Source: Limnochordaceae bacterium (GTDB lineage Bacteria > Bacillota > Limnochordia > Limnochordales > Geochordaceae). Taken from it: a stretch of 64,000 nt of DNA. The stretch covers positions 248,001-312,000 of the forward strand of contig JADBKR010000007.1 in assembly GCA_014896295.1 (NCBI GenBank), in the 5' to 3' direction. Shown here one piece after another: positions 41,874 to 50,995 of this stretch; positions within the stretch are counted from its first letter, which is position 1, and each line of letters begins with the position of its first letter. The notes under the pieces were generated by a model. It did not search any database and had not been told where the DNA came from. It was given only the letters and a program-made list of their open reading frames with translations. Made by a program: the position numbers and the translations under genes.

Positions 41874-42167
41874 ATGGCGGACGGCTCCTTCCGGAGGGTG
41901 ATCCAGGATGAGGAGCACCGCCGGGAAGAGTTCCTGGACCGGCAACTCGAGGTCGGTTGGGAGGAAAACCCCGCCGACCAAGCTCTGGAGCCCCGGGACC
42001 AGTTGACCACGGATCGGCTGGTCGAGGTGCAGCAGGAGGAGATGGGTGAGCCACCGAGGCTGTGGCGTCACGGGTGGCCGCGCAGCGGCGCGTCACCGGC
42101 GCACGGGGCGAGGCGGCGCCCGCTGATCGCCTCTTCGATGGCCCGCCGCAACAGGAGCGGGTCGTAG
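41874..42167 (+). CDS. Small charged hypothetical protein
   Basis: A 97-residue protein that I do not recognise. The first 60 residues are strongly charged and helix-prone (RRVIQDEEHRREEFLDRQLE and TTDRLVEVQQEEMGE), unlike the Pro/Ala/Arg look of shadow frames. The last 35 residues are Arg/Pro/Ser-rich and overlap the 3' end of the convergent gene by 100 bases, so the true product may be shorter or the tail may be incidental. ATG follows AAAGGGGGC, and a good promoter lies upstream. It is the only plus-strand gene between 14 and 60 kb. Function unknown. Confidence 0.5.
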   Translation: MADGSFRRVIQDEEHRREEFLDRQLEVGWEENPADQALEPRDQLTTDRLVEVQQEEMGEPPRLWRHGWPRSGASPAHGARRRPLIASSMARRNRSGS

Positions 42168-43807
42168 AAAAAGACCGGGTATCCCCGAAAGTCCGAGGCC
42201 TGCCGCTCGAGCACGGCGACCGTCGCCTGCCGGAGGCGGGCCTCGATGTTTACGCGGACCCCTTCCAGCCGTTCGGACAGCGCGGCGTTGACCTGCTCGA
42301 TCTGCCGCGTCAGCGCACGCCGGGGAGCTCCCGGCTGCTGGATGGCCCAGACGAGCCGCCTCTTCTCATCGGCAAGCCGCGCCAGCGTGTCGTCCGCTTC
42401 GCCGGGAGCCACCCACCGTTGCGGATTGAAGCGCAGGTCGCGCAGCTGCCGGCGCAGCTGATCCGGCGGCTCCGCGATTTCGGGCCGCGGCAGGTCGGCC
42501 AGCGCCAGGCTCATGGAAGCCACGGCGTAAGGGGGCGGCTCGATGCCGTAGAACCGCCGGGCCACGGCGTCCGTCACCCGGTCGTAGCGGGCTCCCCCCA
42601 CCCCGTGCACGAACAGGTCGGCCAGGAACAGCCTCAAGAACAGGGTCAGCGTCACCGCCCGGGGGCGGATGGCCAATCCCGCCCGCTCCAGGGCCTCGGC
42701 GAGCTCCCGGGCGTCACCCGGCCGGGAGAGGGGCAGCTCTGCCACCGGGCCATCCACCGTCGATAGCTCCAGGGCGTCCCGGCGGGAGCGGTCCTGCCTC
42801 GCATAGAGCTTGCGCCGGCGGACGCCCGGCGTCAGTACCCAGAAGGGCAGTTCCACCCGCCCGCCGGCCGGCTCGACCAGCAGGTCCGGGAAGGGATTGG
42901 CCCTGGAACGGATGTGATGCTGCGACCGGTACGCCGCCAGCGTCTCGTTGTGAATGAGGGCGAACTCCCGAGCCCGTAGCGCCACGTCGGCGAAGAAGAG
43001 CCGGAACGGCCAGGTCGAGGTCAGCTCTCCTGCCGGTACCTCGAGGTACTCCGCGTAAGCCCCGAGCGCCATGGCCTCGAAGCGGTGGCGGGCAGCGGTC
43101 ACCCACTCGGCCAGGCTGGCGGGCGCCTCCCGGTCGCCGCCCGTCGGCGAAGGGGCGGCGGCGAGCCGCATGAACTCCAGGAACCGGCGGATGAGGCTCT
43201 CGCCGGGCTGCCCCAGGGTAGCGAGCCGCTCCACCACGCCCGAGGCGAACGCGTCGAGCTCGCTCGCCCCGGGCGCCGGCACCTGGCAGAAGGGATACCC
43301 GTAGCCCACCGGGGCAAGCGTGACCGGCTCTACGGTGAGGCGCCCGTCCTTGCGAACGGGGACCGGCGCCGCCATCTGGGCCGCGGTGTCGTAGTCCACG
43401 ACCACGTTGAGGGCGACCGCGCCGGGCACGGTGCGTGCGAGGGCCCCGACCAGCGCGTTCTTGACCACGATGCCCGGGTGGGCCAGGATCGGCTGGTGTC
43501 CGGTGACCATCCAGCGCAAGGGCCGGACGGGCCCGTGGATCGCGTGGTGGCCTGCGCTCGGGCCTTCCCACCACCCGTAGCGGCGAGCCTGCCTGGCGCC
43601 TATGGCCAGCGCCGCCTGCCGTAGCGCTCCCCGCAGCTCGGCGGCCGGGACTCCCCCTACGTCGAACCGCTCCGCCTCCAGCGCTTCCGCGTTGCGGGCG
43701 GCGAGCTCCGCCAGCGCAGGCGCCGGCGGGTCCACCAGGGCCTCCCCGAGAGGCGGCAGGGTCCATGGCCGGCGGGATGGATGTGGCGCCAACGAGACCG
43801 TCCCCAC
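42068..43807 (-). CDS. Conserved protein, distantly BshC-like
   Basis: A 579-residue cytoplasmic protein. It has an N-terminal Rossmann-like part with MVTGHQPILAHPGIVVKNAL (about residues 99-118) and LNVVVDYDTA. A distinctive late block follows, LFLRLFLADLFVHGVGGARYDRVTD, given here in parts as FLADLFVHGVGG and ARYDRVTDAVARRFYGIEPP. The GHQ..hPG..VKN motif parallels TGQQ..L.TGPLYTIYKA of BshC, the cysteine-adding bacillithiol enzyme, but the rest is divergent, so I treat BshC as a lead only. The gene follows an LmbE-type deacetylase by 11 bases; the bacillithiol genes bshB and bshC encode exactly such a pair. ATG at 43807. Confidence 0.55.
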   Translation of the reverse strand: MGTVSLAPHPSRRPWTLPPLGEALVDPPAPALAELAARNAEALEAERFDVGGVPAAELRGALRQAALAIGARQARRYGWWEGPSAGHHAIHGPVRPLRWMVTGHQPILAHPGIVVKNALVGALARTVPGAVALNVVVDYDTAAQMAAPVPVRKDGRLTVEPVTLAPVGYGYPFCQVPAPGASELDAFASGVVERLATLGQPGESLIRRFLEFMRLAAAPSPTGGDREAPASLAEWVTAARHRFEAMALGAYAEYLEVPAGELTSTWPFRLFFADVALRAREFALIHNETLAAYRSQHHIRSRANPFPDLLVEPAGGRVELPFWVLTPGVRRRKLYARQDRSRRDALELSTVDGPVAELPLSRPGDARELAEALERAGLAIRPRAVTLTLFLRLFLADLFVHGVGGARYDRVTDAVARRFYGIEPPPYAVASMSLALADLPRPEIAEPPDQLRRQLRDLRFNPQRWVAPGEADDTLARLADEKRRLVWAIQQPGAPRRALTRQIEQVNAALSERLEGVRVNIEARLRQATVAVLERQASDFRGYPVFFYDPLLLRRAIEEAISGRRLAPCAGDAPLRGHP

Positions 43808-43818
43808 CCTTTCTCATC

Positions 43819-44589
43819 TCAAACGAGCGCCGATGGGTCCGCCACGCCGGCGAGCTCCCGGGCGATGAGCGGCTCGGCGTACCGGCAGCCAATCAGGTCG
43901 CCGTAGTAGCGATCCCGGGTGCGCAACCGCTCGGGCACGGCGCGGCCCGCCTCGTTGACCCCGAATTGCGACGTGTACGCCTCGACGGCGGGTAGCTTGC
44001 GCTCTTCCCAGAAGGCGGAGACGTCCACCGCCAGCGAGGCGGGCGCGTGCAGGCGCAGGTGGGTCGCGACGAAGTAAAGGGCGCGAGGCACCAGGTACGG
44101 CTCTCCCGGCATCGAGGTGCGAGTCAGCTTGCCGTAAAAGCGCGCCGCGTCGGTCAACGCCGACGCCGCTACGTGATCGGGGTGCAGGTCCTCCCAGTAG
44201 TGTCCGAGCAACAGCTTGGGCCGGAGCAGGCGGAGCACCGAGGCCACGGCCGCGCGGCCGTCGATGGTGTCCTGCAGGGCGCGATTGGGAAGTGCCAGCG
44301 TGACGCGGGTCTGCACCCCCAGGATGCGAGCGGCTTCATGGCTCTCCGCCCGCCGCCGCTCGGGGCTGCCGAACGGCGTCGGCTCGCCGTTGGTCAGGTC
44401 CAGGATGCCCACCGAAAGGCCGCGGCCGACGAAGGCAGCCACCGTGCCTCCGATGGCCAGTTCCACGTCGTCCGGATGGGCTCCGACGGCAAGCACGTCG
44501 ACGGGACGATCCAGTCCGGTCCCGTACAGCGCCTCGATGGGCAGCGAGGGGGGCGACCCCGGCGCGCCGGCAGGGTCGCTCAGCAACAC
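43819..44589 (-). CDS. LmbE/PIG-L-family deacetylase (BshB-like)
   Basis: A 256-residue zinc-dependent deacetylase of N-acetylglucosaminyl conjugates. Zinc ligands in VGAHPDDVELAIGG (His, Asp, Asp; about residues 34-47) and HPDHVAASAL, with LDLTNGEPTPFGSPERR between. The family includes BshB1 (bacillithiol), MshB (mycothiol) and PIG-L. The GTG at 44589 is chosen because GGAGG lies 8 bases upstream and it overlaps the glycosyltransferase stop by 10 bases. The open frame further upstream lies inside that gene. Downstream is the BshC-like gene. The substrate is probably a GlcNAc-conjugate made by a glycosyltransferase. Confidence 0.85.
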   Translation of the reverse strand: MLLSDPAGAPGSPPSLPIEALYGTGLDRPVDVLAVGAHPDDVELAIGGTVAAFVGRGLSVGILDLTNGEPTPFGSPERRRAESHEAARILGVQTRVTLALPNRALQDTIDGRAAVASVLRLLRPKLLLGHYWEDLHPDHVAASALTDAARFYGKLTRTSMPGEPYLVPRALYFVATHLRLHAPASLAVDVSAFWEERKLPAVEAYTSQFGVNEAGRAVPERLRTRDRYYGDLIGCRYAEPLIARELAGVADPSALV

Positions 44590-45332
44590 CCGGCCTGCCT
44601 CCTGGCGACCGCCGGACAGCCATCGGCCCGGACGGCCCTGCGCCACACGTCGTCGTAGTAACGCCGTCGCGCCGAGGGGTCGTCGAGCCCCCGACCGAAA
44701 CGGCGCTCGAAGTTGGGCTTGTAGATGAGGGGCACCGGAAGCTCTACGATGCTCAGCCCGTGCCGCCACGCCTCCACCCAAACCTCCAGCGGCATCGCAT
44801 ATCCGTCCTCCGAGAGGTGCAAGCGCCGTAAGGCGCTTACCTGGTATCCCTTGAAGCCGCAAAACGCATCCGTGATCCCGAAACCCGTCAGCGCATTGAC
44901 GCGGGCCGTGAACTCCCGGTTGATCGCCAGCCGGTCGAGCGGCACCTCGCCCTCGCTCCCGGCCACGCGCGCCAGGTAGCGGCTCCCGGAGACGATGTCC
45001 CATCCCTCCTCCAGGCGCCGGAAGAAGGCAGGGATCAGGGCCGGCTCGTGCTGCTCGTCGCAGTCCATGGTCACCAGCTGATCGAACCCGTAGGATTGGG
45101 CCCAATCGAAAGCGTCCCGTAGAGCGCGGCCATACCCCAGGTTGCGGGGATGCCGGAGTACCGCGATCCCGGGTATGCCCGCCAGCACCGAAGCCGTGCC
45201 GTCGGTAGAGCCGTCGTCCACGACCAGCACGACGGCCTGCGGTGCGACCTCCCGCACTCGCTCGAGCACCTGCCTGGCGGACCGCTCCTCGTTGAAGACG
45301 GGGATGGCGACTATCTGGCGCCGTAAGCTCAA
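44580..45332 (-). CDS. Family 2 glycosyltransferase (dolichyl-phosphate-mannose-synthase-like)
   Basis: A 250-residue GT-A-fold glycosyltransferase. The nucleotide-sugar site is VAIPVFNEERSARQVLERV (about residues 7-25) with VVDDGSTDGT; the DxD-type motif is TMDCDEQHEP; GSRYLARV follows. It has no transmembrane helices. The TTG at 45332, with GGAAGGGG 9 bases upstream, is the only start consistent with family length, and it lies 24 to 30 bases after the predicted promoter. First gene of the operon with the deacetylase and the BshC-like protein. The classic bacillithiol glycosyltransferase BshA belongs to a different family (GT4), so this GT2 either is unrelated or replaces it. Confidence 0.85.
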   Translation of the reverse strand: MSLRRQIVAIPVFNEERSARQVLERVREVAPQAVVLVVDDGSTDGTASVLAGIPGIAVLRHPRNLGYGRALRDAFDWAQSYGFDQLVTMDCDEQHEPALIPAFFRRLEEGWDIVSGSRYLARVAGSEGEVPLDRLAINREFTARVNALTGFGITDAFCGFKGYQVSALRRLHLSEDGYAMPLEVWVEAWRHGLSIVELPVPLIYKPNFERRFGRGLDDPSARRRYYDDVWRRAVRADGCPAVARRQAGCC

Positions 45333-45362
45333 AGCGAAATGCCCCTTCCGGTATCCCGCGAT

Positions 45363-45391
45363 ATTGTAACGGGGATGCCTGCCGGGGTCTA
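45363..45391 (-). promoter_or_regulatory. Sigma-A-type promoter for the glycosyltransferase operon
   Basis: On the minus strand TAGACC (plus 45386-45391), a 17-base spacer and TACAAT (45363-45368). It overlaps the 3' end of the large secreted-protein gene and leaves a short leader before the TTG start. Confidence 0.6.
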
Positions 45392-48300
45392 CCGGCCACC
45401 GGCACCGCCGGGGTCCGAGCTCCACCACCCGGTCGTCCGCACGAAAAGACCCGGGCGCATGGAAGCGGGGACGTCGCCCGGCCGCATCGGCTTCCCCGGC
45501 GCTTTCACCAGGCGCCATCCCATCTCGAGCAGGCCCTCGGGGCTCACCACGAAAAGGCCGGCGCCGAAGGAGGCGCTCCGGTGCAGCGACCAGCCGCCCG
45601 GCTCCAGGGTCAGGGAAGCGGCCCCACCCTCTGCGAACCATCCCCACCGCTCCGCCAGCAGGCCCCGGATGCCTGCATGCCCCATCCACGTCCAGGCCCG
45701 GTAGCCCTCCCCAGCAGGCGTGACGCGAACGTCGCCCCGCAGGTACCGGCCAGGGGAGGCCCGCAGCCAGCGCCCTGCCTCGGAGGGAGGGCCGGGATGG
45801 TCCCCGATTGAGGCCGACCATTCGGCCACCTCGCCCTCGAAGCGCGCACAGACCGAGGCCGCCATGCGCTCGCTCCCGTACAGGAGGCGTCCCTCGGCGA
45901 CCAACGCTGTCTGGTCCTCCTCCACCGCCCCGCCGGAACGGCGCCGCAGGGAGAACGCTCCGGACCACCGCTGGACGGCTCCGGTTGCATCGGTCTGTTC
46001 GGGTGCAGGGCCGGCGCGGGTCCACGAGAGCTCGGCCTGTTCGGGAGTGAGCCGAAGCGCCACCGTGCCCCACCGGGGGTTGTACTCGATCGCGAGATGG
46101 GACGGCCGCAGCCTTTCCGGACGGGCCTCGAGCCCTGTGGCCAGCCGCACCCCGCTCGAAGGCTGCAAAGCCCCTTCCACCCGGGTCCCCGGGGTCAGGC
46201 GAAGGCCATGGGCCGAAAAAGTTGCCTCCACCCTGCCCTGCAAGCGCAGGTCCAGCTTCCGGGAGAGCGAAGCGGCAAGATCGACCCAGGCGGTAGCAGG
46301 CGCCCCGTCTTGCCCCTCGAGGAGAGTCCTGGCATCCACCCCCAGGGACCAGCGTCCCCTCGGCGCGGCCGGGCCTGCCGCGGCTGCAGTGAGGCGGGCG
46401 ACGGGATAGACCCGGGGATCGGCCTCGCACCCGCCCTCGCCCTGCCCGACTGCCAGGCCTGCTTGGGCATCCAACCGGACCGCGCCCGCGAGGGAGCTCG
46501 GGAGCGAGGAGCCTTCGGCCGTGGCGGCTACCGCCAGGGCCTGCCGCAACCTGGCGGGATCCCGCGCGTCGTCGGCGGAGTGCCACAGCAGGCTGCCCAT
46601 CCCGTACAGCTGGGTGAAGCGCCCCATGTCGGCACCGAGCCCCAAACGGTGGGCCAGACCGCCGCTCGCGAGCCGGGCCGCGCTCCACTCCACCGTGGTG
46701 CGGCCGCCCCCCGCTCCGGGGCCTGCGAGCCCCGTCTCCCCGCCCGCTTCCCACGTCTGCCACGCGGTATCCCTCCCTCCTGCCCATGGAGTGACGAGCC
46801 TGGCCGTCCACGCGCTTGGCGGCAGCCCGTCGACCGGGCCCGGGTATCCGGCCGGGTCCATGGGCCGGCCCGGATCAAGGCTCATCCGGTACTCCACTTG
46901 AGCCTCGCTCGTGTCCTCGTCGCTACGCCGCCACCCTGCGTGCAGAGCCGGGCCTTGCCCCCTCTGCCCCAAGGCCATGGGGCCCGTAACGGTCAGCCAG
47001 GTCGTTTGCTTCTCGTCCCGCCGGTCGACGGCCTGTACGAAGCTCTGTCCGCCGTCGAGCCGCCACGTAGCCACCCATCCGGACCCCCTGGCATCGCTCG
47101 CTCCCCACTCCCACGCAACCCCCGGAACCAGGCCCCCGCCATGCCCGCCTCCGGAAGAGGGAGGCTGCAGCAGGCTCCCGTCCACTGCCGGAGGCTGCAC
47201 GCGATCCCCCCTGGCCGGGTCGAGCAGCCCTGCCGTCACCTCGTGGAGGGCCGTCCCCCACTCCAGCCGGGCCGGCAAGCGGCCATCCGGCCCTGCAGCA
47301 ACGACCAGCTGCCCCCTCGCTTCTCCGGCACCGACCGTGACCAAAAGCGAGCCGTTGCCGTCCGGTGCCGCGCCGGAGGTCCACTCCATCCGGCCTGCCG
47401 CGTCGACGCGCCACGCCGGCGACCCTCCTGCCGGTCGAGCCCCGGGAGAAGGAGCGGCGAGCACCGCGGGCACACTCACACCCGGCCGGACGACGAGGAT
47501 GGCCGGCTCGCCCCGGGGTATCCGGACTGGCTCATGATCCCCCCGCACCGCCGCCGGGTGCTCGACCCACAGCATGTGCACGCCTGCCGGCAGCGCCATG
47601 CGGAAAAAGCCCGACCGGTCGACCCCGGCCGACACGCCGAGGCTCGAAGCCACCACCCATTCGTCCTGCCCGCCCGCGGGCTCCACGCGGCCAACGACCA
47701 CCCCGTGCCCTTCCACCAGCTCCCGGGACAAGGGCAAGGAGATGGAGGCGGGCGCAAGAGACGCCTCGAAACGCCCGTGGCGCATCGTCCCTCGGGCGAT
47801 CACCTCCACCTCGCCTCGCCCCGCCGCTTCGGGCGTCACCACCGCCCGCACCGACAGCGACGAGGTCGCGCTCCCGGGAGCAACGCCCACTGGCCACAGC
47901 AGCCTCCCTTCGTTCCACCCGATCGTCTGACGGTAACGATCCTCGCCTCCTCTCGGCGATGGCCGCCACGAATCGGGGAGGACCTGCAGACCGGAAGGAA
48001 AGCGGAGCTCCACGAGGACCGGCGGCTCGCCCCCCGGCACGAGATCCGGCAGGCCCCGCGCAAACTCCACGCTGGCGTCGATCTCGACGACGTCGCCGAC
48101 CCATAGGGCCCGCCGCCCGGCAAGGTTGCGCATCGCCAGCCGGATAGAGGGCGTGTCAGCGGGCCGGAGCAACAGTTCGGCCTTACCGGCGCTTTGCGTC
48201 CGTGCATCGGCAGGCGGCACCCGGACCTCCCCGGCCGCTCCCCGGTAGCCCGGCGCTTCGGCTTCCACCCGGTAGACGCCGGCATCCAGACCGGAGAAAG

Positions 48301-49243
48301 TCAGGCTCCCCTGCCCGTTGGAGCGGCCTGACCGCCCCGGCGGTCCCCCCGGGCGCCTCAAGGTCACCAGAGCCCCGTTGACCGGCCTGCCGTCCAGGGC
48401 GTCGCGGACCTGGACCTCGAGCGCCTGGGCGGCCGCCCCGCCCTCGACGAGCAGGACCGTCGTGCCTCCAATCCGCCGCCGGGCCTGTCCCCGCTGCCAG
48501 AAATCCACCACCACGCAATAGAGACCCACGGGCAGGCCGGTGACCTTGGAGGCCGGGACCTCCAGCATCTGCCACCCGGACCCTACCGGCCCGGCCAACA
48601 CGTCCCACGGCGTCAAGACGCTGCAGTGGGTGCCCGGCGCGGCCGGGCCCAGTCTGACCCAGATCGCGCCCTGGCCCGGGACGTCCGCGTAGACCTGTAA
48701 CGGCTGCGTAGAGCCTTTGACGTAAGGGTTGGGCCATGCCAGGACCGGGTCGAGGGTCACCCCGCTCGGTTGCAGCGTGTAGCGTACGGGAACGGAGTAA
48801 GGAGCGGAGGCGGCCCGATCCGTCCACTCGGGCCGGAACCTCCACTCGATGTGGGCGACGGTCTCGGCAGGCAGGTTCACCTGCCGCCCCGTACCCGGGT
48901 ACGTCAGCGGAATAAAGTCCGGCACCTGGCCTTCGTACCAGCGCAGGCCCCACTGCAGCCGGTTCAAGGGAAGCCGAAACGTCCCGTCGGGACCCTGGCT
49001 GACCAGTTCGGGCGCCTGGGGCTCGGGAATGATCGAGACCAGCCCCTTCGGCACCAGGAATCCGACGTGTCCCACGACGGCGCCCGTGCCGGGCCGCACC
49101 GGATCGGCCGGCAAGAGCACGGGAGCACCTCCCGGGGGCAGGTCCACCTCCCATGCACGGACCGGGACGGCCGCAAACGAGAGCCCAAGCAGCGCGCAAA
49201 GCACGAAGCGCCCCAGAACGGCCCTACCGCCCGTGGGGCTCAT
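45389..49243 (-). CDS. Large secreted protein: Ig-like and regulatory-like domains plus a barrel-like C-terminal half
   Basis: A 1284-residue exported protein with no close match that I can name. An N-terminal Sec signal (VLGRFVLCALLGLSFAAVPV, ending near ARAW, residues 9-31) is followed by beta-rich domains. One is a carboxypeptidase-regulatory-like domain near residues 275-345 (VRDALDGRPVNGALVTLRRP). A DUF11-like or cohesin-like beta domain lies near 380-490, and a second regulatory-like domain near 510-590. From about residue 700 to the end the sequence alternates hydrophobic and polar residues with many Trp/Tyr and Gly, as in an outer-membrane beta-barrel. ATG at 49243 overlaps the preceding stop (ATGA). 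Usher-like placement is inferred. Confidence 0.6.
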   Translation of the reverse strand: MSPTGGRAVLGRFVLCALLGLSFAAVPVRAWEVDLPPGGAPVLLPADPVRPGTGAVVGHVGFLVPKGLVSIIPEPQAPELVSQGPDGTFRLPLNRLQWGLRWYEGQVPDFIPLTYPGTGRQVNLPAETVAHIEWRFRPEWTDRAASAPYSVPVRYTLQPSGVTLDPVLAWPNPYVKGSTQPLQVYADVPGQGAIWVRLGPAAPGTHCSVLTPWDVLAGPVGSGWQMLEVPASKVTGLPVGLYCVVVDFWQRGQARRRIGGTTVLLVEGGAAAQALEVQVRDALDGRPVNGALVTLRRPGGPPGRSGRSNGQGSLTFSGLDAGVYRVEAEAPGYRGAAGEVRVPPADARTQSAGKAELLLRPADTPSIRLAMRNLAGRRALWVGDVVEIDASVEFARGLPDLVPGGEPPVLVELRFPSGLQVLPDSWRPSPRGGEDRYRQTIGWNEGRLLWPVGVAPGSATSSLSVRAVVTPEAAGRGEVEVIARGTMRHGRFEASLAPASISLPLSRELVEGHGVVVGRVEPAGGQDEWVVASSLGVSAGVDRSGFFRMALPAGVHMLWVEHPAAVRGDHEPVRIPRGEPAILVVRPGVSVPAVLAAPSPGARPAGGSPAWRVDAAGRMEWTSGAAPDGNGSLLVTVGAGEARGQLVVAAGPDGRLPARLEWGTALHEVTAGLLDPARGDRVQPPAVDGSLLQPPSSGGGHGGGLVPGVAWEWGASDARGSGWVATWRLDGGQSFVQAVDRRDEKQTTWLTVTGPMALGQRGQGPALHAGWRRSDEDTSEAQVEYRMSLDPGRPMDPAGYPGPVDGLPPSAWTARLVTPWAGGRDTAWQTWEAGGETGLAGPGAGGGRTTVEWSAARLASGGLAHRLGLGADMGRFTQLYGMGSLLWHSADDARDPARLRQALAVAATAEGSSLPSSLAGAVRLDAQAGLAVGQGEGGCEADPRVYPVARLTAAAAGPAAPRGRWSLGVDARTLLEGQDGAPATAWVDLAASLSRKLDLRLQGRVEATFSAHGLRLTPGTRVEGALQPSSGVRLATGLEARPERLRPSHLAIEYNPRWGTVALRLTPEQAELSWTRAGPAPEQTDATGAVQRWSGAFSLRRRSGGAVEEDQTALVAEGRLLYGSERMAASVCARFEGEVAEWSASIGDHPGPPSEAGRWLRASPGRYLRGDVRVTPAGEGYRAWTWMGHAGIRGLLAERWGWFAEGGAASLTLEPGGWSLHRSASFGAGLFVVSPEGLLEMGWRLVKAPGKPMRPGDVPASMRPGLFVRTTGWWSSDPGGAGGR

Positions 49244-50414
49244 GGGACATCGACCCCGCTCGGATGGAGGGCCAGGGCCGGTTCGACGGTGACCACGAGA
49301 TCGTCCCGGGCGACCTCCCGCTCGCCGTGGATCCAGCGTACCCCCGCCCGATAGGCCCCCGGGGCCAGGGGGCCCGGCCAGGGCAGGCGAGCTACCCTCA
49401 CTTCTCCGCGTCCACCGGCCCCAGCAGGACCGGGTCTTGCGCCGTCCGGGCCCCATCCCGCTCGATGTACCACTCGAGCTGCGGCGCAAGCGTATGAGGA
49501 CTCCGGTTGTGCACCGAGGCCACGAGCGCCATGCTGCCGTCCCGGGAGGGCCTGAGTTGCAGGCTCACGGCACCGTCGACCCCGGCGAGGCGATACGGTG
49601 CATCGACCGTCAGGCTCGCGGTGGCTCCGGCGGCCTTTCCTGCACCCCGGGTGCCGGCCAGGCTCGCCGATACGCGGTAGACCCCGGCAGGGAGCAGGTC
49701 GGGCTGCCAGCGGGCCCGGACGAGCCGCACCGCGCCGGGGTAGACCGTCGCGGGACCCATCAAGAGCGCCGCCTGAGGTCCTCTTCCTGCCCCAGGCCCC
49801 GACTCGGCCGTGATCACGCTCTCGATCACCGCCTCGGCGTCCGTCCCGCCGTCGTTGCGCACTCGGGCAACGATCTCCACCGGGTCCCCCTCTCTGCTCT
49901 GCTCCGCCCACACCGCCTCGATGGAGAGCTGCGGGCCGCGCGCGGGACGGGCACGGCGCACGCCGACCAGCACGACCACCCGGAAGGTACCCAGGGGAGC
50001 CGGCACCTGTACCAGCACCGCGCTGTAGATGGCCGACTCCGGCACCCGCCGCACCGAAAGCCACAGCGTCTCCTGCTGGCCGGGGCCAAGGACGCGCTCG
50101 GTCCACTCCGGCCCGAGGTACTCCTGGGCGCGGGCCAGGTGCCCGGGCTCCTCCAGGACGACCGGCCGCCCTTCAGGGGAATGCGTTAGCATAGCTATCC
50201 CCACGCGCACGGGTAGCGGCGCCTCCCCCCGGTTACCCACGAAGATGGGCCCGACTCGCTCCCCGGCATGTTCCACGACCGCCGTCACCGTCAACGGAGT
50301 GACCCTCAGCAAGGCCCGGCAGGGCTGCTCGATCCCCATCACCAGGCCAGCGGCCGCCAGGAGCGTCACACAGAGCCACCATGGGCACCTTCCGGCCAAC
50401 CGGTACGGCATCAT
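49240..50414 (-). CDS. Secreted Ig-like, chaperone-like protein, frameshifted near its end
   Basis: Exported protein of about 390 residues when repaired. Signal peptide with WWLCVTLLAAAGLVMG (about residues 12-27). The first domain reads VTPLTVTAVVEHAGERVGPI with FVGNRGEAPLPVRVGIAML, resembling periplasmic pilus chaperones and other Ig-like fibrillar-assembly proteins. Two further Ig-like domains follow (IVARVRNDGGTDAEAV and LVASVHNRSPHTLAP). The main frame stops at 49398, but another frame continues with VRVARLPWPGPLAPGAYRAG and ends at 49240 in an ATGA overlap with the next gene, so I place a one-base shift near 49398-49420. The ATG at 50414 follows GGAGGGCACGGGGC. Chaperone function is inferred from order and pattern. 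Confidence 0.6.
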
Positions 50415-50443
50415 GTTGCCCCGTGCCCTCCTTCCCAGAGCCC

Positions 50444-50995
50444 TCACGGGACGGGTCGCGCCAGGGTGAACGTCACGTCCATCGTGAGCGTCTCGCCCAC
50501 CCTGTCCTCGTAGGACGGCACGTACACGAAGGTCACGCCGACCTGCCTCCCCCCGCTCCCGGTCGGCAGATCGCCTCGAGCGACCCCTTGTGCCGAGGCG
50601 GTCAGCGTCCTGGCCTCTCCGCCGTCCACGCGGAACTGCATCGAGCCCGTGGCCGGGACCCCGTCGGCGGTCTTCGGCCTGTCGCTGTGGCCCTTTACCG
50701 TAAGATCCCAGGGTACGTTGGACCTCACCACCACCTGGAGGGTACCGCCCCCCGGGGAGGGGGAGCCCGGCGCCACCGCCCACGCAATCGGGCCTTGTGG
50801 GCTCACCTCGAGCTCCATCGCCTCCTGAATCGTTACCTGGAGCTGGACCTGCCGATCCATCGCGAGAGCACCCCCCGTCGCTGCTGCCAGGGCCGCCAGG
50901 ACGGCCACGCCGGCCAGCGCCACGACGGTCGTGCACCGGTCGAGTGACGGCCTTGCGCCTCCTGTTGGATGAGCGGATGCCCGTACGGGCCCCAT
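50444..50995 (-). CDS. Small secreted subunit-like protein
   Basis: A 183-residue exported protein. An N-terminal signal (TTVVALAGVAVLAALAAATG, residues 22-41, ending near GALAMD) is followed by a beta-rich domain of about 135 residues. VQLQVTIQEAMELEV opens it and LTMDVTFTLARP closes it, an alternation seen in fimbrial, spore-coat-U-like and WxL-type subunits. I cannot assign a family. The ATG at 50995 with GGTGAGG is preferred over a GTG at 51007. First gene of the three-gene cassette; 29 bases separate it from the chaperone-like gene. Confidence 0.6.
   Translation of the reverse strand: MGPVRASAHPTGGARPSLDRCTTVVALAGVAVLAALAAATGGALAMDRQVQLQVTIQEAMELEVSPQGPIAWAVAPGSPSPGGGTLQVVVRSNVPWDLTVKGHSDRPKTADGVPATGSMQFRVDGGEARTLTASAQGVARGDLPTGSGGRQVGVTFVYVPSYEDRVGETLTMDVTFTLARPVP

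Follow-up and report, generated by a model that had tools for sequence, protein, structure and literature searches.

The usher of chaperone-usher pili is a 24-stranded barrel with an inserted plug and with N- and C-terminal periplasmic domains, and the pilins carry an N-terminal donor extension, absent from the subunit at the chain end, which is the mark of strand donation. WxLIP, the DUF916-DUF3324 protein of WxL clusters in monoderm Bacillota, has a C-terminal transmembrane helix. WxL clusters typically comprise a small and a large protein with a common WxL domain, plus one WxLIP (PMC10599100).

Whether the Firmicutes descend from an ancestor with two membranes is a question in which diderm Bacillota play a central part, and the equipment of their outer membranes is poorly known. 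Limnochordia, an early-branching class among them, have been shown by microscopy to be diderm; filamentous envelope structures have been reported in cultured members of the class, and an S-layer was observed in strain L945T, in the genome of which no S-layer protein was found (PMC11456536).

The locus considered here is a cassette of three genes, A, B and C, in a Limnochordaceae bacterium; "the window" denotes the whole stretch that was analysed, 64,000 nt of contig JADBKR010000007.1 (GCA_014896295.1; positions 248,001–312,000, forward strand), and all coordinates are given in its numbering. In the literature library searched, no paper was found to describe the cassette. With the chaperone-usher systems of archaic or alternative type (those of CsuC, CfaA and CupB2) it has in common the order subunit, chaperone, outer-membrane protein; with WxL clusters it has in common two secreted proteins, one small and one large, which share a domain and are encoded beside an Ig-fold partner. 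It appears to work like one or the other, though membership is shown for neither: of the defining traits, it lacks the usher profile of the chaperone-usher systems, and both the WxL domain and the WxLIP helix of the WxL systems. Together this suggests a so far undescribed route to surface structures, akin to but distinct from chaperone-usher pili. If true, Limnochordia gain a class-wide, chaperone-linked and so far nameless surface-assembly system, which might explain reported surface layers or filaments lacking a known gene, and the link of WxL/WxLIP clusters with chaperone-usher pili becomes testable.

The A-B-C unit and its genomic setting

The three genes are co-directional on the minus strand and all have signal-like N termini, as the first-pass annotation had read them. 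Gene A (50444..50995) encodes a secreted beta-rich protein of 183 aa, read from its open reading frame and from the alignment of its family (28 aligned relatives); gene B as deposited (49398..50414) encodes 338 aa of a two-Ig-domain chaperone-like protein, its fold predicted from a relative in family f13; and gene C (45389..49243) encodes a large secreted protein of 1284 aa, a long-C family member and probable outer-membrane protein, the signal of which closes with VRA ahead of WEVDL. Upstream lie ahcY (Pfam) and metK, downstream a glycosyltransferase, a PIG-L protein (Pfam) and genes which, from reading their translations, resemble bshC, mtnP and degS. The stretch behind C at 42068–45405, with the glycosyltransferase, the PIG-L deacetylase and the BshC-like gene, looks like bacillithiol biosynthesis when taken together with gene order in relatives.

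The middle gene, previously taken as whole, is frameshifted in the deposited sequence. Its reading frame stops at 49398, and some 53 residues continue in another frame (49240..49400, minus strand). Compared with the genome of the same species, G072, which is 97.3% identical across the cassette stretch, the window is one G short in a G run at about 49407 (minus strand); intact B of G072 has 391 aa and ends in an ATGA overlap with C, and B is likewise intact, with ATGA into C, in G001 and G002. In the window the TGA that overlaps the ATG of C in the ATGA at 49243–49240 is in a frame other than that of the deposited ORF, so that the overlap of the last two genes described earlier holds for intact B and not for B as deposited. 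The metK gene of the window has the same type of one-G gap relative to G072 (at about 53486), which makes a fault of assembly or sequencing the likeliest cause of the frameshift in B; that B is a genuine pseudogene is less likely, given the metK gap of the same kind and the intact relatives. Since the metK gap disrupts a presumably essential gene, other reading frames of this assembly need care as well, and a further one-base gap relative to G072 is found at 45374. The dN/dS ratios against G072 are below 1 for the cassette (A 0.38, B 0.30, C 0.38) and lower for its neighbours (metK 0.07, ahcY 0.16).

Across Limnochordia, A, B and C are kept together as one unit, which as a rule adjoins metK. 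A profile search located B in 43 of the class's 73 genomes, and where the contig was long enough to tell (38 loci, the window included), the gene immediately upstream of B belongs to the A family in 36; both figures are far above chance. The two exceptions, G004 and G025, are both divergent. The order A-B-C is kept in relatives, mostly straight behind metK, and in families f1 and f2 behind metK-ahcY, while most f13 loci have 4-bp overlaps among the three genes; in G016 and G027, B has no neighbouring C. Outside the class, A-B-C occurs in G247 and G158, B-C-A in G163 and A-B in G425. A single-sequence search with C returned its close family and one partial match only, and C-related matches in further families appeared once profiles were used; likewise, the f13 B profile finds the B of the window (E 1.6e-7). 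The neighbourhood survey within Limnochordia that the first-pass annotation had proposed thus reveals a cassette spread more broadly than first seen.

The position beside metK throughout the class would also suit a housekeeping structure, in which A forms an envelope coat or S-layer-like layer on C, and an S-layer does occur in strain L945T (PMC11456536), which need not be among the genomes compared here. Such a coat is nevertheless quite improbable, as A is small and Pfam revealed no SLH domain in any of the three proteins.

Protein B and its structural relatives

None of the three proteins had been recognisable as a member of a known family, and this is borne out: Pfam/NCBIfam scans of A (28 members) and of B gave no family above cut-off, C matches no usher profile, and the profile search against FimC-like, WxL and usher families, earlier proposed as a check, found nothing above cut-off in A, B or C. 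PapD_N (PF00345) is absent from the window's own genome and matches 2 of 28 B members weakly (best E 0.031); WxLIP_PGBD (PF06030) matches 3 of the 28, also weakly (best E 9.9e-4), both being among the weak Pfam matches of B members to Ig/ASH-type families. The SCPU profile matched nothing above cut-off and was equally silent in control genomes, and is hence uninformative. A profile of B had no significant relatives among PDB sequences.

An AF2 model of the f13 relative (205 aa, 12 sequences; pLDDT 88.1, pTM 0.78) consists of two beta-sandwich (Ig) domains, and the B family is thereby predicted to have the two-domain PapD-type chaperone fold, the absence of which had been named as refuting the analogy with chaperone-usher systems. 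In a Foldseek search of the PDB, WxLIP was the best match (1.4e-8), ahead of the chaperones CfaA (3.4e-8) and CsuC (8.6e-8) and, more weakly, CupB2 (6.5e-7), FimC in its usher complex (2.6e-6) and Caf1M (6.3e-6), with TM-scores of about 0.5–0.6; that WxLIP ranks ahead of the chaperone-usher chaperones had escaped the first-pass annotation. By hhalign, the class-wide B alignment is related to six E. coli K-12 chaperones with E 1.4e-4 (probability 53%, 157 columns), whereas the f13 set alone gave nothing (E 0.13) and B against ushers gave E 0.096; apart from the first, such hhalign comparisons yielded E 0.08–0.4 or short alignments. All 13 sequences compared, that of the window included, have an arginine at one position in the final strand of domain 1. 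On the model, B would stand structurally between WxLIP and the chaperone-usher chaperones, which makes a common ancestor of both conceivable.

WxLIP as the best match of B raises the possibility that the cassette is the two-membrane counterpart of a WxL cluster, in which A and C are surface proteins sharing a domain, B stays bound to them and stabilises them, no fibre is formed and C serves only as an anchor. The weak WxLIP_PGBD matches and the domain shared between A and C, as between the small and large WxL proteins, agree with this. However, a WxL domain was found neither in the 28 members of the A family (no match with E up to 5) nor in C, long or short (Pfam); in C the shared domain sits at the N terminus and not at the C terminus; the modelled B finishes with strands and a short disordered tail, without the C-terminal transmembrane helix of WxLIP; and C, unlike the components of a WxL cluster, has a C-terminal region which is rich in beta-strands and would suit an outer membrane. 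We regard a WxL counterpart as rather unlikely.

Protein A and the domain it shares with C

The A family (alignment of 28 sequences) aligns with the long-C family over 116 columns at the N terminus of C (hhalign E 4e-13, probability 98%), and with the lineage of the window's own C alone at E 1e-4; moreover, the A HMM matches long-C N termini in f9, f12, f2 and f6 with E-values of about 1e-5 to 1e-15. By these profile comparisons an A-type domain is common to A and to the N terminus of long C, where in the window it would occupy residues 31–161 approximately (48761..49153, minus strand); none was detected in short C by the same comparison. This domain was not seen in the first-pass annotation, and ushers have no counterpart of it.

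In A/C pairs from the same genome (cleavage sites of the signals placed by eye), the shared part of A is preceded by an additional strand, which the copy in C lacks. In the window, A reads MDRQVQLQVTIQEA and then MELEVSPQGPIAWAVAPG, and the counterpart in C is WEVDLPPGGAPVLLPADPVRPG. The strand MDRQVQLQVTIQEA (residues 46–59; 50819..50860, minus strand) is donor-strand-like, with a presumed donor function: three alternating positions are hydrophobic in 28 of 28 family members, and the intervening positions in 4–11%. The last strand of A alternates too, and its final residue is aromatic in several families. Judging from these alignments, we infer that A may engage in strand donation, the extra strand, present in A and absent from C, mirroring the donor extension of pilins. 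Against this, alternating strands are also found in ordinary beta-sandwiches. No significant similarity to known pilins was found for A (an E. coli pilin profile aligned over 13 columns only and was not counted), nor did an A profile find significant relatives among PDB sequences. The description of A as a subunit is strengthened by its pilin-like terminal strands, while fibre formation by it stays conjectural.

Protein C as a candidate assembly platform

Protein C comes in a long form of about 1070–1480 aa (f1, f2, f6, f9, f12) and a short form of about 666–716 aa (f8, f13, f16), which hhalign connects with each other (E 2.2e-5, probability 76%, 312 columns). The only Pfam domain in long C is CarboxypepD_reg (PF13620; in the window residues 275–350, 48194..48421, minus strand, E 5.8e-15), with DUF11 in addition in an f9 relative. 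For the collection scan and the structure models the short-C lineage was used, the mixed long-C alignment being too divergent for the scan.

The model of short C (668 aa, 12 sequences; pLDDT 81.5, pTM 0.63) shows beta-sandwich domains up to about residue 350, followed by 26 consecutive strands (residues 356–655), of which the first are short and less sure and the last seven 8–15 residues long. Its best Foldseek matches in the PDB are the ushers FimD (1.4e-5) and PapC (5.1e-5), then porins, at TM-scores of about 0.16, which is very low. In contrast to an usher, the strand series contains no plug-sized insertion, and extra domains are N-terminal only, none being C-terminal. The short-C profile retrieved only beta-barrels from the PDB (OmpX/Ail/TMB, at its C-terminal end), at values of 0.025–0.29, which are weak and not significant. 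Usher PF00577 is absent from the window's own genome and scored above cut-off in 0 of 398 genomes of the phylum, and C has no profile similarity to six E. coli ushers (hhalign E 0.39 and 0.12). Hydrophobicity autocorrelation, tried as a test for a barrel, is not diagnostic: the first and the second half of the window's C both alternate.

A C-terminal barrel in C, which had been named as a point on which the analogy would stand or fall, is supported, not proven, by the modelled meander, which may or may not close and whose strand number is provisional. By homology transfer from the short-C model, the C of the window is a probable outer-membrane protein; judging from that model and from the weak PDB barrel matches, the proposed membrane barrel would be its beta-rich region from about residue 690 to 1284 (45392..47176, minus strand; boundary approximate). 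In sum, the chaperone-usher analogy stands in part: the fold of B and the strands of A speak for it, whereas the usher matches of C are at a TM-score of about 0.16 with no usher profile. In addition, no separate tip adhesin is seen in the cassette.

A signal, a series of domains and a C-terminal strand region make up a type V-like layout, and adhesins often contain Ig-like and CarboxypepD_reg domains; C could therefore be read as an autotransporter-like adhesin whose own C-terminal barrel carries the N-terminal domains to the surface or lets them pass, A and B being accessories. The autotransporter beta-domain family is, however, missing from the Pfam matches of long and short C, the run of predicted strands by far exceeds the 12 of an autotransporter barrel, and the conserved partner with a chaperone fold would be left without explanation, which renders this reading distinctly improbable.

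Our preferred reading, to which we assign a probability of roughly 0.5, is the chaperone-assisted assembly of an A-type protein on the outer-membrane platform C by strand donation. A, B and C would be exported through their signal sequences; B, as a periplasmic two-Ig-domain chaperone, would hold and protect A-type domains, both free A and the N terminus of C; and C would be inserted into the outer membrane via its C-terminal beta-region by the Bam machinery and act as a platform, perhaps as an exit pore. There, A would dock on the A-type domain of C by donating its own N-terminal alternating strand, and further A could be added onto A in the same way, so that a fibre or patch held by C would arise. 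In this scheme, the chaperone activity of B, the donation of strands, polymerisation and the surface location are what we infer. It is favoured by the A-B-C order conserved across the class, by the matches of modelled B to both WxLIP and chaperone-usher chaperones together with the hhalign relationship and the invariant arginine, by the A-type domain in C and the alternating strands of A, and by the usher- and porin-like meander of C; of the 73 class genomes, 71 encode Omp85/BamA, and that of the window has it too. Against it stand the low TM-score of C to ushers, its missing usher profile similarity and plug-like insertion, the lack of significant pilin similarity in A, and the absence of C beside B in G016 and G027.

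A bolder scheme, which we hold to be doubtful, is an assembly of the pilus type with no separate usher, in which platform C brings its own pilin-type acceptor domain and the fibre stands on the pore, and which could go back to an ancestor common to WxL and chaperone-usher systems that diderm Bacillota retained.

A locus of another Bacillota lineage (G262; L148 3143–8173) also lends weight to assembly on C, as a B relative (HMM E 3.7e-11 within the locus) adjoins a weakly usher-like protein there. Like the cassette, it combines the B relative with small beta-proteins and with a large protein that is beta-rich; in contrast, that large protein resembles ushers weakly (E 1.6e-4, below cut-off), and no relationship between it and C could be detected. 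The locus itself may be a distant chaperone-usher operon.

Some divergent or extended loci were observed besides. In f13 loci (L084, L092 and others) a large cytoplasmic protein, conserved in position and reading like an alpha-amylase-type glycosidase, follows C. In G004 (L082 3985–9947), away from metK, a B relative lies between genes for a 712-aa and a 981-aa protein, neither recognisable as A or C. In G025 (L106 3181–7779), near flagellar genes, a B relative is accompanied by an A-like small protein and two more secreted proteins, one of which reads like the end of a secretin.
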